Origin: Candidatus Daviesbacteria bacterium | GTDB lineage: Bacteria > Patescibacteriota > Microgenomatia > Daviesbacterales > UBA10151 | Assembly: GCA_016176405.1 (NCBI GenBank) | Contig: JACOXG010000010.1 | Coordinates: 1-33,077 of the forward strand | Length of the DNA stretch: 33,077 nucleotides | Direction of reading: 5' to 3' | In this document: positions 19,543 through 33,077 of the stretch, piece by piece | Position numbering within the stretch: the first letter of the stretch is position 1 | Layout: the number at the start of each line of letters is the position of its first letter | Translations under genes and position numbers: made by a program | Notes under the pieces: model-generated | Seen by the model: only the letters and a program-made list of their open reading frames with translations | The model's database searches: none | What the model was told of the DNA's origin: nothing

Positions 19543-19630
19543 AATAATATTTTTTATAGTCTTTTTGGCAGCCATATTGATAATTTCTCTTGATAGTTTA
19601 CCGAAATTAGATTCTATAACTACTCAATGA
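19532..19630 (+). CDS. Single-pass membrane microprotein (32 aa)
   Basis: MKDKIIFFIVFLAAILIISLDSLPKLDSITTQ; ATGA overlap with the IF3 start at 19627; below the ORF-track cutoff. Confidence 0.55.
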   Translation: MKDKIIFFIVFLAAILIISLDSLPKLDSITTQ

Positions 19631-20112
19631 TAAAGCACCTTAAAATAAATTATCAAATCAAAGCCCAAGAAGTTAAGCTAATAAATGAAGAAGGAGAATT
19701 CAAGGGGATACACCCAATACAGCAAGCCTTAAATATGGCTATGGCATCAGGTCTAGATTTAGTTGAAGTATCTCCAGGAACTTGTAAAATTTTAGACTAT
19801 GGGAAATTCATATACGAACAAAAGAAAAAACAGACAAAGCAGAAATTGCAAGATACTTTAGAAATTAGATTGTCTCCCAATATAAATAATCATGATGTAG
19901 AATATAAAATTAAGCATGCAAAAAGAATCCTATCCCGAGGAGACAAAATTAAACTAATTATAGTCTTTAAAGGCCGTCAAATGCAGCATACAGATTTAGG
20001 AATTGGATTATTAAAAACTGTGACTGAAAGGCTTATAGACACAGCTATTTTAGCAGATAATCCAAAATTAGAAGGAAAATATCTAAGTGTTACAGTAGCC
20101 CCGAAAAAGTAA
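19627..20112 (+). CDS. infC: Translation initiation factor IF-3
   Basis: 161 aa; INYQIKAQEVKLINEEGEFKGIHPIQQALNMAMASGLDLVEVSPGTCKILDYGKFIYEQKKKQ and GDKIKLIIVFKGRQMQHTDLGIGLL...APKK align across both IF3 domains. Confidence 0.95.
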   Translation: MIKHLKINYQIKAQEVKLINEEGEFKGIHPIQQALNMAMASGLDLVEVSPGTCKILDYGKFIYEQKKKQTKQKLQDTLEIRLSPNINNHDVEYKIKHAKRILSRGDKIKLIIVFKGRQMQHTDLGIGLLKTVTERLIDTAILADNPKLEGKYLSVTVAPKK

Positions 20113-20815: not shown

Positions 20816-21154
20816 ATGGTAATAGCATCTTGTATTTCTACAGCACGTAAATATAGTAAGTCTTCAGAGGAAAATTATAAGATAACTGCATTCCTTGTTC
20901 GTAATGGTAAGCCATTTTCTATTGCTACAAATCTTGGATGGAAACATGCTGAGGCCAGGTGCATAGACCAGGCGTCCTCAGAAAAGATAAAGAATTCTAT
21001 AATGTATGTTATTAGAATCACAAAAGAAGGATTAGGAATAGCAAAGCCTTGCAAGAAATGCCAAGGTCTAATCAAAGACACTACAATAAAGAAAGTCTAT
21101 TATACAACTAACGATAATACATTAGAAACGTGGGAGTTCCATGAAACTGATTGA
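20816..21154 (+). CDS. Cytidine/dCMP deaminase-like protein
   Basis: 112 aa; HAEARCI and KPCKKCQGLI are the zinc-binding HAE and PCxxC motifs. Confidence 0.7.
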   Translation: MVIASCISTARKYSKSSEENYKITAFLVRNGKPFSIATNLGWKHAEARCIDQASSEKIKNSIMYVIRITKEGLGIAKPCKKCQGLIKDTTIKKVYYTTNDNTLETWEFHETD

Positions 21155-25802: not shown

Positions 25803-27023
25803 ATGGAGTCATATAACTATATAGAGTCAGGAATTGTCTTTTCATTAAAAGACAGAAGATCATTAGAGAAGTTTAAATACCAAAGTAAAGATTTCTCGGT
25901 TCACCAAAAAACAATAGATTTTGTATTAAACTATTCTGAAAATTATGAGAATTTTCCAACTGAAGCTCTATTATTAGAGAAATTTCCAGACCTTGATAAA
26001 AATGCCGTTGGATTAGACATAGAATATTGCCTCCAAGAATTTGACAAACAACTAATATTCCGGAAGACAGTAGAAGTAATAAATAGCAATAAAGACCTAT
26101 TAAAATCAGAGCCTAAAAATGCCATAAAGAAAATATTGTCCGGCCTGGAAGACGTAGAATTATCATTTGATGATGACATAGAGATATATGACAATGGGGC
26201 ACTCAGTAGGTTAGAAGACTATAATAAAAAGGTAGAATTACGGAATAAGGGACTAAAAACACTAGGCATTCCAACTAGCTTCAAAACAATAAATAGAACT
26301 ACAATCGGGTGGATGAAAGGAGATTTAGTTTCTATCTTTGCTAGGCCTGGCATTGGAAAAACTTTTTTATTGATTCATGCAGCAGCAGTGGCCTATAAAT
26401 TTGGGTTCAAGGTGTTGTTCATTTCTACAGAGATGTCCAAAGCTGCTATCAATGCTAGGATGGATGTAATGCTAGGGAAGATGTATGGATATGACTTTTC
26501 ACACACGTCAATTAGGAGAGGAGAAGGCTTAGATAAAGAAAAATACAAGGAATTCCTAACAAAGCTAAATTCAAAGCGTCTAATAGTTTTAGATAGCATA
26601 GAAAGAAATGCTATAACATATAATGGGATAGCCTCAAAAGTTAGGAAATATAAACCAGACTTGCTAGTTCTAGATGGGATACAATTAATAGCTTCTGAAA
26701 AATCATCAAATGCTGTATGGGAAAAAATGTTTAACTTATTCTATGGCATAAAGACCCTATCATTATCATCACAAATAACTAGCATTGTTTCTACTCAAGC
26801 GAATAGAAAAGCTGCTGATTTATTTGTACCGCCCAAAGTCGCAGAAGTAGCATTTGGAGACGCTTTAATACAAGCATCAGATTATGCTATGTCTCTATGC
26901 AGAGTCAGAAATGAACCCTTACAGCTATTAGTGCAATTTCAAAAATTTAGGGATGAGGCCTTTCCCGCCGATTATGTAACAATGCATTGGGACGTAGATA
27001 AAGGAGATATAAAAGAAATATAA
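25803..27023 (+). CDS. DnaB-like replicative helicase
   Basis: 406 aa; GDLVSIFARPGIGKTFLLIHAAAVA Walker A, VLFISTEMSKAAINARMD, LLVLDGIQLI Walker B. Confidence 0.9.
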   Translation: MESYNYIESGIVFSLKDRRSLEKFKYQSKDFSVHQKTIDFVLNYSENYENFPTEALLLEKFPDLDKNAVGLDIEYCLQEFDKQLIFRKTVEVINSNKDLLKSEPKNAIKKILSGLEDVELSFDDDIEIYDNGALSRLEDYNKKVELRNKGLKTLGIPTSFKTINRTTIGWMKGDLVSIFARPGIGKTFLLIHAAAVAYKFGFKVLFISTEMSKAAINARMDVMLGKMYGYDFSHTSIRRGEGLDKEKYKEFLTKLNSKRLIVLDSIERNAITYNGIASKVRKYKPDLLVLDGIQLIASEKSSNAVWEKMFNLFYGIKTLSLSSQITSIVSTQANRKAADLFVPPKVAEVAFGDALIQASDYAMSLCRVRNEPLQLLVQFQKFRDEAFPADYVTMHWDVDKGDIKEI

Positions 27024-27851: not shown

Positions 27852-28736
27852 ATGGTAAACTACTTAGACTGGGTTAAAAAGATTGGAATTGATGGTCGTT
27901 TTAGTGGAAATGAATACATAGCCTGCTGCCCATTACACGGAGAGAAACATCCTAGCTTTAGTCTCAATTTACAAACAGGGTTGTGGAATTGTTTTTCTAA
28001 TTGTGGTGGAGGGAATTTTGTCTCTTTAGTTCAAAAAGTATATGATGTTAGCTTATTAGAAGCAACTAAACTAATATCTGATGAGATGCCTGGACAGATA
28101 AATTTCGACTTAGACATTGAAGAAGACAATACAAATTTAGTGCTTCCAGAGGTTAAATTCCCATTTGTTAGAAATAATTTTCCAAAATGGATATTAGATA
28201 GAGGCTTTACCAAAGACATACTAACTAAATGGAAGTGTGGCTTTAATCCAGATAGTGGTTCATTTGTAATTTCAGTATATGATGAAAAGAAAAGATTAGT
28301 TGGTTGGATATGCCGACAGCCTAATGGAAAAGAGCCAAAGTACATAAATTCTACGGGTCTAGAAAAATCAAAAATAGTTTTTGGCCTATATAATATTAAG
28401 CAGAGAAGAATAGTATGCGTAACAGAGGGGGCATTAAATACAATTTGGTTAAATCAACATGGTTTTTCTTCAGTGGCAATTTTAGGGGCAAGACTATCAA
28501 GACGACAGGAGGAACTTTTATCAATAGCACCAATAACTGAACTAATTATTTGTTTAGACAATGATGAAGCAGGAAGAAAAGGAAGAGATGAAATATATGC
28601 CATAATGAAAAAATACTTTCAAATATCATTTATACAAATCCCAAATGAATACAATGATGTTCAAGACATTAAAGATCCAAAATTACTGACAAACATAATT
28701 AAAAACAGAACAATGTTCAAAGAAGGAGTTATTTAG
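27852..28736 (+). CDS. DNA primase (CHC2 zinc finger + Toprim)
   Basis: 294 aa; CCPLHGEKHPSFSLNLQTGLWNCFSNCGGGNFVSLV; Toprim VTEGALNT...LIICLDNDEAGRKG. Confidence 0.9.
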   Translation: MVNYLDWVKKIGIDGRFSGNEYIACCPLHGEKHPSFSLNLQTGLWNCFSNCGGGNFVSLVQKVYDVSLLEATKLISDEMPGQINFDLDIEEDNTNLVLPEVKFPFVRNNFPKWILDRGFTKDILTKWKCGFNPDSGSFVISVYDEKKRLVGWICRQPNGKEPKYINSTGLEKSKIVFGLYNIKQRRIVCVTEGALNTIWLNQHGFSSVAILGARLSRRQEELLSIAPITELIICLDNDEAGRKGRDEIYAIMKKYFQISFIQIPNEYNDVQDIKDPKLLTNIIKNRTMFKEGVI

Positions 28737-29480
28737 ATGCCTGGAATTAACAGAATAAAGTCAGAAGCAGCAGACGAGAAATCACAACAATCTAGTTCAG
28801 AGCTCTGGCCAAAAGATGGAGATGAAGTATTTGGCCTAATAGTATCTGACGGGAATGATGATAATGACTTAAGATTTGATAAGTTCTATACCCATTCTGT
28901 CCAAGGAAAAAGAGATGATGGCTCGAATCTTTGGAAGAATTCTCTCTGCCCTTCTAAAGAGGAAGAAGTATGTAAACTATGTGATAAGGATGTTAGACCA
29001 GCGAGAAAATTTGGGTTTTGGATGTATGTAAATTATATTTTACATAAAGAGAAGAAGAATGATTCCTGGGAAGCTGTGAAAAAGAGGGCCTCGGGAGAAG
29101 TACAATATAAAGAAGACATAAATGACTTTAGAGTATTTTCTCATGGGTTTGGGTCTAAAGACTATCTTTTCAATCAAGTTGTAGATATATTCAATGAGTA
29201 TGGTTCATTGAATAAATATGTTATTAGAATCAAAAGGACAGGTTCTGGTATGAAAGATACATCTTATGCTATAACCAGTACCACTAAAATATTTGAGCTG
29301 CCAAAAGAAATGCAGACTAAAGTGAAAGAATTGCCTGGGATTAGAGAATTCTTTAAAAAGCAATGGTCTCCTAGAGTTCAAACATCAGAAGACAATAAAG
29401 ATGCTAAATTATTAACTCAAGAAAATGATGAACTAGGTTTGGGAGATATAGATGAAGACCCTACAGAATCTTTGTTTTAA
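28737..29480 (+). CDS. Single-stranded DNA-binding-like protein
   Basis: 247 aa; Cys motif CPSKEEEVCKLCDKD and acidic C-terminal tail (DELGLGDIDEDPTESLF); follows helicase and primase. Confidence 0.55.
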   Translation: MPGINRIKSEAADEKSQQSSSELWPKDGDEVFGLIVSDGNDDNDLRFDKFYTHSVQGKRDDGSNLWKNSLCPSKEEEVCKLCDKDVRPARKFGFWMYVNYILHKEKKNDSWEAVKKRASGEVQYKEDINDFRVFSHGFGSKDYLFNQVVDIFNEYGSLNKYVIRIKRTGSGMKDTSYAITSTTKIFELPKEMQTKVKELPGIREFFKKQWSPRVQTSEDNKDAKLLTQENDELGLGDIDEDPTESLF

Positions 29481-29707: not shown

Positions 29708-30907
29708 ATGATTAATTTACTATATGATCTACAGCTAAGCGTATTAGACTCATTAGATGACGGGAATTTTATTATGACTACGGACTCTAATGTAAATGTA
29801 GCCACTGTATTGATAAAAAATTTACTTAATTTGTCTAATAACATAAAAATTTATGTTTTAGTGCCGCCAAAGTCTAAAATCCTAAACTTTAAAAATTATT
29901 TATTAAGTGACATACAATCTTCCAATTTAGACTTTATTGAGTACAAATATTATGGAAATCCGTTCGTAGATAGGATGTCCTTTTTTAGTCGAGATTTAAT
30001 TCAATCTCTGAAGAACTTGAAAGTTGATATTGTCTATACTAATGATCCATGCAAAGTTCTGGGGTATAAGACAGTGCTATATAGTCTATTATCAAAACCG
30101 GTTCCAGTGATGTCCAGAAATCACTGGGTGACCGGAAAGACAGACTATAAGGTTCCACAATACATTGACTTTGCTCTTAGACAATGCGAAGGAGCTTTGT
30201 ATTCTGATAATGCTACTTTCAATTCAAAATTTGCTGTCGATTCATTCTTATATAATGCAGAACAATACTTGAATAAAGAGACGATAGAGTCACTGTCTAA
30301 AAAATTAGATCATATAGAATGTGTAGACATAGATAAAATTGATCAATATAGAACTGATGAAAAGTTTGATGAATTTACTATGATTTTTGCAAATAGACTT
30401 AGTTATTACACTGGATGGAAAGAGACATTAGACGCTATAAATAGACTATGGAAAAGACGAAAAGATTTTCAAGTCATAGTCCCAGACCCTGGAAATAAAT
30501 TCAAACAAGAAGACTTATTTTCTGAATATAATTTTATTAAGACAGTGAATAAAGATACTTGGACTCATGAAGATTACATAAAAACCTGTTGGAAAGTAGA
30601 TGCCTGTATAGGTAACCATAAATATCCGGCTACTTGGGGCGGACTGGCTATAACAGAACCAATGGCAGCGTACAGTATTCCTATTATTCCTAAAAGACAC
30701 GCTTATTTAGAAATGTTTGATTCAGACTCTCATTCTTTTTTTACTGATGAAAATGATCTTATTAGAGCCATTGAATTTTATTTAGACAATAGAGAAATTT
30801 TAGAGAAAGATAAGCTAAGAGCCAGAGCCTTTTGTGAAAAGAATCTTTCACCTCAAAAATTTGCTGAATTTATTTTAGATAAGCTTAATATGCTATGCAT
30901 ATCATAA
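29708..30907 (+). CDS. Glycosyltransferase-like protein (GT-B type)
   Basis: 399 aa; N-terminal MINLLYDLQLSVLDSLDDGNFIMTT; C-terminal TWGGLAITEPMAAYSIPIIPKRHAYLEMF and FCEKNLSPQKFAEFILDKL resemble GT4-type enzymes. Confidence 0.6.
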   Translation: MINLLYDLQLSVLDSLDDGNFIMTTDSNVNVATVLIKNLLNLSNNIKIYVLVPPKSKILNFKNYLLSDIQSSNLDFIEYKYYGNPFVDRMSFFSRDLIQSLKNLKVDIVYTNDPCKVLGYKTVLYSLLSKPVPVMSRNHWVTGKTDYKVPQYIDFALRQCEGALYSDNATFNSKFAVDSFLYNAEQYLNKETIESLSKKLDHIECVDIDKIDQYRTDEKFDEFTMIFANRLSYYTGWKETLDAINRLWKRRKDFQVIVPDPGNKFKQEDLFSEYNFIKTVNKDTWTHEDYIKTCWKVDACIGNHKYPATWGGLAITEPMAAYSIPIIPKRHAYLEMFDSDSHSFFTDENDLIRAIEFYLDNREILEKDKLRARAFCEKNLSPQKFAEFILDKLNMLCIS

Positions 30908-31830
30908 TAACTGGTTGTGATAAAACTGGAAAAAGTTTTTTGGCTAGAGAGTTAAGCAAACGTTTATATTTTCCAGTTATCAATAGGCTAGTTCCAAAAC
31001 AAAATATTTTTATAGAATGTATTGACACGTTAACTGAATTAAAAAGTCCAATGATAATAGATAGATTTCATATAGATGAAGAAGTCTATGGACCAATAAA
31101 ACGTGGAAAAAGTAGATTTGATTTTAGACAATATAAGATAATAGAGCTTTTGATGTTGATGTTAAAAACAGTTAATGTTTATTGTATAGATTCGGAAAGT
31201 TCAATTCAGTCTAGAATAAACTTATCAAAAGAAAATGAATACATATCTAGTAACGAAGTCAACATAATTTTACGGTCATATGATAATTGCTTAAGGACCA
31301 GTATTTTAACTTGGAATACGTATAAATTAGGAGATGATATTAGTCCATTAGTAAGTTTGATACAAAAACAAACACTGAATTTAAGACGCAGACTTAATTT
31401 TTTGTCCTATAGGACAATAGGAAATTTACTCGGATCTATTTTAATAGTTGGAGATAGATATGGAGACAAATTATTGCCACCTCTAATTCCATTTGGTAAT
31501 AATGAGCCAGGACTAAGATTATTTTTAGCTTTAGAAAAGTCTAATCTGTCTTGGTCTGATATAATAATAACTAACTCAATTAAATTAAATAAAAATGAAA
31601 TCGGACTAGAAATTGACAATAAAAAAGCTTTAATTGAAGAATGTTCTTTGCCGAATATAAAAGTCATAGTCTGTTTGGGAAATAACGCGTATAATAATGT
31701 ATTGGCCATTAAACCAAAAATTTCGAACAATGTCATAATAAACAAAATACCTCACCCGAGTGCTTGGTTTGTCTATCAAAATAAATCCATAGAAAGTTAT
31801 TCGAGACTAATAGATGCAGCAATACTTTAA
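30895..31830 (+). CDS. P-loop (d)NMP-kinase-like domain fused to uracil-DNA-glycosylase-superfamily-like domain
   Basis: 311 aa; Walker A GCDKTGKS and IIDRFHIDEEVYG; C-terminal ILIVGDRYG...IIITNSIK...VIVCLGNNAY...IPHPSAW follows the UDG superfamily motif order. Confidence 0.65.
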   Translation: MHIIITGCDKTGKSFLARELSKRLYFPVINRLVPKQNIFIECIDTLTELKSPMIIDRFHIDEEVYGPIKRGKSRFDFRQYKIIELLMLMLKTVNVYCIDSESSIQSRINLSKENEYISSNEVNIILRSYDNCLRTSILTWNTYKLGDDISPLVSLIQKQTLNLRRRLNFLSYRTIGNLLGSILIVGDRYGDKLLPPLIPFGNNEPGLRLFLALEKSNLSWSDIIITNSIKLNKNEIGLEIDNKKALIEECSLPNIKVIVCLGNNAYNNVLAIKPKISNNVIINKIPHPSAWFVYQNKSIESYSRLIDAAIL

Positions 31831-33077
31831 AAAATCAATGACGTTGGTTAAGTCTAAATTAGACTTTTCAGATCTTTTAAGGTTTATTGCAAAGTCACAA
31901 AGCCTAGTCATAGATACTGAGACTTCAGGTCTAAGACTATGGCAAGATGATTTTGTGTCTGCTATTGGGATTGGAGATATAGACAGACAATTTTTTCTAG
32001 ATTTGCGTCCTGATTGTTTGGATTATGAAATTAGTTTAAGTGAACTATTTGACTCTTTAAGAAAGACTAAAGTTATTATTGGCCATAATATAAAATTTGA
32101 CTTAGCCGGCCTATTAAGACTAGGATACGAGGTTCCAGATAATCAAGAAATTCATGACACAATTGTAATGGCTAGGTTGTTATCAATAGAAAGATTTCCT
32201 AAGTTAGGTCTCACTCCTTTAATCCAACAGTACATTTCAGAGTTTGGTAGTCAATATGATATAGACTTTAAGCAGTTCTTAAAGACTAATAAAATAAAGC
32301 TGTATTCTCAGTCCCCTAGTTTAGAGCTTGGGATCTACTGTTTAAATGATGTTTACTATACAGCTAGTCTATATGAAAAATTTAAACAATCATTAGTTTC
32401 TTTAAACTTGGTTGGACTTTGGAATCATGAGATTAAAGTAACTAAGACAGTTTGGAAAATGGAAAAACAAGGAGTTTTAATAGACAAGAAATATTGTAGC
32501 ACGGCCTTAAGTGTAATTAGCTTAAAGTCTAAGCAATTGGAGTCTGAAATTAACGAAGTGGCTGGTGAAGATGTAAACTTAGGAAGTAACAAACAGCTAT
32601 CAAAATTTTTTAGGGGTCTTAAATTAGAGGCTCCAACAAAAACTAAGAAGGGGGGCGAAAGTTGGGGAGAGGCTTCTTTAATTTTATTAGACCATCCAGT
32701 AGCTAAGAAATTGTTATCTTGGAGAGGACTTCAAAAATTAAAGACATCATATTTTGAGACATACTTAGAAAGAGAAAGTCCATTACATTGCTCATTTAAA
32801 AACTGGGGTACTGTTACTGGACGGTTTTCTTGTGTTGATCCTAATTTTCAACAGCTACCTAAAGAATTGACTAAAATTTTTGATGAAGATGAGACTAAAG
32901 AACTGTCAGAATTTCAAAAGGCTGCCATAGCCTTAGTGAAGGCTGATAAAGAACGCCAAGGAGGCGGTAAACTTTTAATAAAGTCTGTGTCTTCATATGA
33001 AGATGATATATTTGATGAAGAGAAACACATTTCTGCTAAGAGGTCTATAGTTCCTAGAGATGGAAATGTTTTTCTTA
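31814..33077 (+). CDS. polA-like: Family A DNA polymerase with 3'-5' exonuclease domain (truncated by the window end)
   Basis: Absent from the ORF track. Exo motifs LVIDTETSGL and IIGHNIKFDLAGLL, then GTVTGRFSCVDPNFQQLPKE and AKRSIVPRDGNVFL. Confidence 0.9.
   Translation, partial: MQQYFKKSMTLVKSKLDFSDLLRFIAKSQSLVIDTETSGLRLWQDDFVSAIGIGDIDRQFFLDLRPDCLDYEISLSELFDSLRKTKVIIGHNIKFDLAGLLRLGYEVPDNQEIHDTIVMARLLSIERFPKLGLTPLIQQYISEFGSQYDIDFKQFLKTNKIKLYSQSPSLELGIYCLNDVYYTASLYEKFKQSLVSLNLVGLWNHEIKVTKTVWKMEKQGVLIDKKYCSTALSVISLKSKQLESEINEVAGEDVNLGSNKQLSKFFRGLKLEAPTKTKKGGESWGEASLILLDHPVAKKLLSWRGLQKLKTSYFETYLERESPLHCSFKNWGTVTGRFSCVDPNFQQLPKELTKIFDEDETKELSEFQKAAIALVKADKERQGGGKLLIKSVSSYEDDIFDEEKHISAKRSIVPRDGNVFL

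Follow-up and report, generated by a model that had tools for sequence, protein, structure and literature searches.

A phage kinase fused to a uracil-DNA glycosylase domain in an operon that probably modifies cytosine

Introduction

Which base, if any, is modified by a phage operon in which a GT-B-like glycosyltransferase, a P-loop kinase fused to a uracil-DNA glycosylase (UDG) superfamily domain and a family A DNA polymerase are encoded by overlapping genes? This question is raised by a stretch of 33,077 nucleotides from Candidatus Daviesbacteria (assembly GCA_016176405.1, 952 kb in 33 contigs), referred to here as the window, which forms bases 1-33077 of contig JACOXG010000010.1 (C21, 109,932 bases). 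The contig ends in direct repeats of 99 bp and carries genes for terminase, portal, head-maturation protease, helicase, primase, single-strand DNA-binding protein and polymerase, which makes it a phage genome and probably a complete one. A sequence-only reading of the window had suggested a DNA base modification pathway. We find a base-modification operon to be very probable, with the fusion belonging to it, and we now add that the base is probably cytosine. More specifically, we consider it rather likely that the operon places a C5-modified cytosine of the 5-hydroxymethylcytosine (hmC) type in the phage DNA, with the kinase half of the fusion acting in the pathway. Gene content, domain identities, linkage between fusion and hydroxymethylase, and residue signatures were computed, and from these we infer the activities and their order.

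The kinase-UDG fusion and its family

Both halves of the fusion were recognised by profile and by fold. Using a four-sequence profile, the best solved relatives were YorR for residues 1-158 (5e-23) and a family-4 UDG for the rest of the protein (1e-9), which bears out the two-domain assignment of the sequence-only reading. The C-terminus also matches the Pfam UDG family PF03167 (4.2e-6; 27.3 bits against a curated cut-off of 24.3). An AlphaFold2 model built from an alignment of 52 rows reached a predicted local distance difference test (pLDDT) score of 86.9 and a predicted template modelling (pTM) score of 0.83. When this model was compared with PDB using Foldseek, the kinase half retrieved YorR and deoxynucleoside kinases and the other half UdgX and family-4 UDGs (~1e-6), while the top match among viral models was gp315 of phage G over its full length. 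The motifs GxDxxGK (residues 7-13) and DR (56-57) and residues E62, Y65 and R70 of the kinase half were found to be invariant or nearly so in 56 dereplicated homologues. With its P-loop GxDxxGK, its DR motif and YorR as the closest structure, the kinase half is placed among the YorR-like deoxynucleotide kinases.

Full-length homologues of the fusion were found by tblastn in Bacillus phage G, Actinomycetia phage DSL-LC01, Stenotrophomonas phage AXL3, Pseudoxanthomonas phage PW916 and a spring-water phage. Scans of IMG/VR, made with alignments built on AXL3 relatives, returned 121 loci (some on contigs present twice), and dereplication at 80% identity left 56 fusions and 33 stand-alone kinases. 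The window fusion as a lone query gave no matches in IMG/VR or in GTDB genomes, nor did the 52-row alignment in GTDB genomes. Identity with the window protein falls to 16-25% among the fusions. In a tree of the kinases the fusions clustered without forming one clade, and the window protein grouped with those of loci L057 and L058, a rough result with long branches. The kinase-UDG fusion belongs to a widespread phage family annotated only as 'thymidylate kinase'. As an example, phrog_761 ('thymidylate kinase'), phage G gp315 and AXL3 gp29 are full-length homologues whose UDG domain goes unmentioned in PHROGs and in the records, and gp29 was given a role in phosphorylating thymidine monophosphate (dTMP) by the AXL3 authors (PMC7504290). 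We found no earlier description of the fusion in the literature searched, outside which key older work lay; neither 'UDG' nor 'thymidylate kinase' occurs in the main text of the jumbo-phage study by Iyer et al. 2021.

A gene for an enzyme of the ThyA (thymidylate synthase) fold was present with all 56 dereplicated fusions, and in 54 of them it lies on the same strand within 600 bp, the median gap being -16 bp, an overlap. The two exceptions are phage G (1.5 kb) and the window phage (1.9 kb, with the polymerase gene between). In the window phage this is the thymidylate synthase or hydroxymethylase homologue for which a genome search had been suggested, and it was found just beyond the window. 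Since the scans were queried with fusion peptides only, the linkage was not built in. Among the stand-alone kinases from the same searches, a ThyA-fold gene was observed in 16 of the 32 whose surrounding sequence was long enough to show one (Fisher p = 4e-7, to be taken as a rough guide only because the fusion and kinase rows share descent). Deoxycytidine monophosphate (dCMP) deaminase was present in 46 of the 56 fusion loci and an AXL3-type nucleoside triphosphate (NTP) pyrophosphatase in 27.

Some further genes were noted at these loci. A relative of AXL3 gp31, an S-adenosylmethionine-dependent methyltransferase (Methyltransf_23), occurs in 27/56 (for example L010:10596-11420 and L057:5187-5963), close upstream of the fusion in several, and possibly performs a further modification step; the window locus gave no match to it. 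One open reading frame of 438 aa (L135:1483-2799) matches the kinase profile as well as the hydroxymethylase profile and is therefore a hydroxymethylase-kinase fusion. In another phage with the fusion and a hydroxymethylase, a C-5 cytosine DNA methylase was observed (L060:11100-12323; PF00145, 1.5e-9).

Base specificity of the ThyA-fold enzyme

The base was read from two signature positions, numbered 147 and 177 as in E. coli ThyA. Threonine at 147 and aspartate at 177 were found in all 54 fusion-linked enzymes that could be read, the same pair as in T4-like gp42. Three enzymes of 5-hydroxymethyluracil (hmU) phages (SPO1 gp29, ViI-like and M6-like) have Asn147/Asn177, and a true ThyA control has His147/Asn177. 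The catalytic cysteine of the superfamily was kept in the window enzyme and in 54/54 relatives. The window enzyme carries Asp177 (within FPYDVF), and its best solved relative is a CMP 5-hydroxymethylase (4e-20). Asp177 is a published determinant of dCMP use and marks cytosine-modified contigs experimentally in MetaGPA (PMC8670742). The presence of Asp177 in the window enzyme and of Thr147/Asp177 throughout its relatives indicates that cytosine, and not uracil or thymine, is probably the modified base, and the fusion-linked enzymes probably make 5-hydroxymethyl-dCMP.

Evidence from cultured phages supports this independently. Each of the 35 tested enzymes with G or C in its site fails to cut AXL3 DNA, which is cut by TasI and Tru1I only, whose sites, AATT and TTAA, hold A and T only (PMC7504290). 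Phage G encodes two AGT-type DNA alpha-glucosyltransferases of PF11440, gp306 and gp313, near its fusion. Furthermore, ThyX is present in both the window phage and AXL3, so that the ThyA-fold enzyme is dispensable for dTMP in these two phages.

Proposed modified-cytosine pathway

In the pathway that we propose, a ribonucleotide reductase of class II would supply the nucleotide pool together with dCMP deaminase, the pyrophosphatase would clear unmodified dCTP and dUTP, and ThyX would provide dTMP. The ThyA-fold enzyme would yield 5-hydroxymethyl-dCMP, which the kinase half of the fusion would phosphorylate; the family A polymerase would then incorporate the modified nucleotide and the glycosyltransferase may cap the modified base. 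The UDG half may be a pyrimidine-reading domain that finds, and perhaps excises, uracil or hmU arising from deaminated cytosine or hmC or from misincorporated dU. The fusion would in this way couple the supply of the right nucleotide with removal of the wrong base. The sequence-only reading had allowed either a modified nucleotide or a DNA base as the kinase substrate. A nucleotide kinase is the likelier of the two, because the nearest relatives are nucleotide kinases and stand-alone versions adjoin a hydroxymethylase, and the substrate is most likely hydroxymethyl-dCMP.

In phage T4, hydroxymethyl-dCMP is made and used by the gp42 hydroxymethylase, gp1 kinase, gp56 dCTPase and the glucosyltransferases AGT and BGT. 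The present system resembles that of T4 in that a single replication region brings together a hydroxymethylase from a family with Thr/Asp, an NTP pyrophosphatase, a kinase, a deaminase and a glycosyltransferase. It differs in its YorR-like kinase, to which a UDG domain is fused, in its family A polymerase and in the window glycosyltransferase, which is not AGT-like. PF11440, the T4 AGT type, had no match in this glycosyltransferase or anywhere in the assembly. The assignment as a glycosyltransferase is weaker than that of the fusion, as both Pfam matches, Glycos_transf_1 (4.4e-5) and QTMAN_N (4e-4), fall under the cut-off. No relatives were found in phage records or IMG/VR, weak matches being restricted to related host genomes, and the structure model made from the single sequence (pLDDT 35) was unusable. 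We regard hmC in DNA as a candidate substrate of this enzyme.

Several observations weigh against the cytosine pathway. The window enzyme combines Asn147 with Asp177, a mixed signature in a family with Thr147 in 54/54. The td protein of Shigella phage SP18 (L148:469-1329), annotated as a dTMP synthase, has His147/Asp177, so Asp177 by itself is no proof of a dCMP hydroxymethylase. Gene order alone links the glycosyltransferase with the pathway. Stand-alone kinases also adjoin ThyA-fold genes, hence such a pathway does not require the UDG domain. In addition, the window UDG domain lacks the conserved Arg293 and Phe294 and has S289 and V293 where most members have Q and R. The window proteins are therefore divergent (Asn147; Ser289, Val293 and no RF), and statements made for the family carry over to this phage with less certainty.

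If the cytosine pathway is correct, the 'thymidylate kinase' family marks phages that hydroxymethylate cytosine. The same reading predicts the nature of the restriction resistance of AXL3, which has gone unexplained, and glucosylated hmC in phage G; these predictions can be tested on phages that are already in culture.

Conservation and function of the UDG half

The motifs of the UDG half are the motif-1 acid D187, PF, N227, LG (261-262) and H287-P288. Pocket residues were observed to be highly conserved among the 56 fusions, with the motif-1 acid kept in 52, PF in 51, Asn227 in 55, His287 in 54, Pro288 in 56 and Arg293 in 54. The acid, PF and Asn align with those of the solved enzymes TM0511, Tth UDG and MsmUdgX, with which the fusion also shares the fold and a His-Pro followed six residues on by Arg, which we take, by our own count, to correspond to R184 of UdgX. 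Unlike these family-4 UDG and UdgX enzymes, the fusion lacks the Gly-Glu-x-Pro-Gly of motif 1 (the acid is kept in 52/56 and Pro-Gly is lost), the iron-sulphur (Fe-S) type cysteine pattern and the KRRIH loop of UdgX, and HPQ replaces their HPS in most members. Inspection of the 56-fusion table revealed no conserved cysteine columns in the UDG half that could form the four-cysteine set.

Asparagine at the specificity position of the pocket is typical of uracil recognition. As it is kept here, a first guess would be that the UDG half finds uracil or hmU. Members of the UDG superfamily are known to read hmC derivatives, as the bacterial anti-phage glycosylases Brig1 and Brig3 belong to it and act on hmC-type bases (PMC11078745, PMC13160076); Brig1, whose nearest fold is the same family-4 UDG, acts on glucosyl-hmC and carries Glu in place of the Asn (PMC11078745). 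These enzymes excise the phage base as a defence, which would be suicidal if done by a phage. A phage with a glycosylase for hmC would destroy its own genome, and the UDG half is thus read as being of the U/hmU type and not the hmC type. We tentatively suggest that it reads, and perhaps removes, uracil or hmU. It is likewise conceivable, although speculative, that the fusion is a bifunctional phage enzyme, in which a hydroxymethyl-dCMP kinase and the policing of wrong pyrimidines in one protein enforce full base replacement. No description of such an enzyme was found in the literature searched, and one may ask why phages with modified bases should join a base-reading UDG domain to a nucleotide kinase.

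A catalytically dead UDG half that serves the kinase in a structural or regulatory role would also be compatible with the cytosine pathway. The loss of Pro-Gly from motif 1, the lack of a conserved cysteine pattern like that of family 4 and the loss of Arg293 in the window member agree with this view. However, the acid, PF, Asn, His-Pro and Arg remain near-invariant in proteins as distant as the 16-25% identity noted above, as a working pocket would show, and we consider a dead domain somewhat unlikely.

Alternative readings of the operon

An hmU pathway, in which the ThyA-fold enzyme acts on dUMP, the kinase forms hydroxymethyl-dUDP and the UDG half reads hmU, would account for Asn147 in the window enzyme, as in dUMP hydroxymethylases, and for the uracil-type Asn of the UDG half. 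The hmU phage SPO1 moreover combines a UDG domain and a replication enzyme in one protein, as here, although in SPO1 this domain is N-terminal on the DNA polymerase (PF03167, 3e-22); the UDG profile of the kinase fusions gave no significant match to it. This pathway is improbable in our view and was downgraded on account of Asp177, present in the window enzyme and all readable relatives where the three hmU controls have Asn, and of the AXL3 cleavage pattern, which indicates C/G and not T. The AGT-type glucosyltransferases of phage G also speak against it.

Alternatively, the fusion could be a DNA kinase whose UDG half flips out the hydroxymethylated base for the kinase half to phosphorylate, leading to hypermodification as with the 5-hmU DNA kinases. 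UDG folds have a precedent for base flipping, both domains were confidently modelled in a single chain (pTM 0.83), and the fusion profile weakly matches orf074, a P-loop protein beside the hydroxymethylase of phage CBA120 that we assume to be an hmU-phage DNA kinase. The kinase half is nevertheless nearest to YorR and to deoxynucleoside and deoxynucleoside monophosphate kinases, stand-alone kinases with no UDG domain adjoin the same kind of ThyA-fold enzyme, and a transferase from any of the known hypermodification systems was not identified beside the fusion gene of the window phage. We therefore rank a DNA kinase under a nucleotide kinase and regard it as quite improbable.

Ordinary thymidylate supply, in which the ThyA-like enzyme and a dTMP kinase raise dTTP, the UDG half repairs uracil and no base is modified, matches the record names 'thymidylate kinase' and 'thymidylate synthase' and the dTDP pathway proposed for AXL3 (PMC7504290), yet it is very improbable given ThyX in the window phage and AXL3, the absence of the His147 of true ThyA with Thr147/Asp177 in 54/54, and the resistance of AXL3 DNA to digestion.

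Gene order and other features of the contig

The glycosyltransferase, fusion and polymerase genes overlap as the sequence-only reading had described, by 13 bp between glycosyltransferase and fusion and 17 bp between fusion and polymerase (Table 1). That reading had also proposed that a deaminase-like gene at 20816 could feed the same pool. Its deaminase fold is real, but a longer dCMP deaminase is encoded further along the contig; the 20816 gene sits upstream, outside the overlapping run, and similar small deaminases occur in 4/56 fusion loci. Past the longer deaminase lie a ribonucleotide reductase, class II by our own reading, and an NT5C-type 5'-nucleotidase.

Table 1. Positions of the features described, in contig numbering, which coincides with that of the window
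Feature	Position	Strand	Basis or remark
Small cytidine/dCMP-deaminase-fold protein, 112 aa	20816..21154	+	HAE and PCxxC zinc motifs; PF00383 4.1e-9; phrog_174 5.6e-12
DnaB-like replicative helicase, upstream, same strand	25803..27023	+	PF03796 2.6e-20
DnaG-like primase	27852..28736	+	PF01807 1.1e-12, Toprim
Single-strand DNA-binding protein	28737..29480	+	phrog_1192 2.9e-7
GT-B-like glycosyltransferase, 399 aa, opens the overlapping run	29708..30907	+	Pfam Glycos_transf_1, QTMAN_N (both below cut-off)
Kinase-UDG fusion, 311 aa	30895..31830	+	Proposed hydroxymethyl-dCMP kinase with UDG-superfamily domain
N-terminal P-loop nucleotide-kinase domain, ~residues 1-166	30895..31392	+	YorR 2axp/3kb2 best by profile and fold
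C-terminal family-4-like UDG domain, residues 176-311	31420..31830	+	PF03167, family conservation, alignment to TM0511/Tth UDG/UdgX
Family A DNA polymerase with 3'-5' exonuclease domain, 654 aa	31814..33077 in window (contig 31814-33778)	+	PF00476, PF01612
ThyA-fold enzyme, start overlaps polymerase end	contig 33756-34643, beyond window		PF00303 7e-20
114-aa protein, overlaps ThyA-fold gene	contig 34630-34974		phrog_173 NTP pyrophosphohydrolase 5e-6
ThyX	contig 34975-35757		1e-33
dCMP deaminase, longer than 20816 protein	contig 36161-36640		phrog_174 7e-31

Other genes of the contig were also recognised. Translation initiation factor IF-3 is encoded in the window at 19627-20112 (TIGR00168, 1.3e-45, above cut-off). 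A complete aldehyde dehydrogenase, uncommon for a phage, adjoins a 5'-deoxynucleotidase at 44492-45979 (L004:11493-12980; PF00171, 3e-135), and no counterpart was found in the 56 fusion loci. The catalytic domain of a glutamyl/glutaminyl-tRNA synthetase occurs on its own at 74740-75681 (L006:2741-3682; PF00749, 1e-88), accompanied by a tRNA-Gln gene at L006:7265-7338. The phage also encodes a GroEL-like chaperonin (81232-82803; PF00118, 1e-67) and an RtcB RNA ligase (95891-97111; PF01139, 2e-109). Finally, DUF192 and an ADP-ribosyltransferase fold (PF03496) were observed in one protein at 55421-57469, which has a weak head-maturation-protease match.

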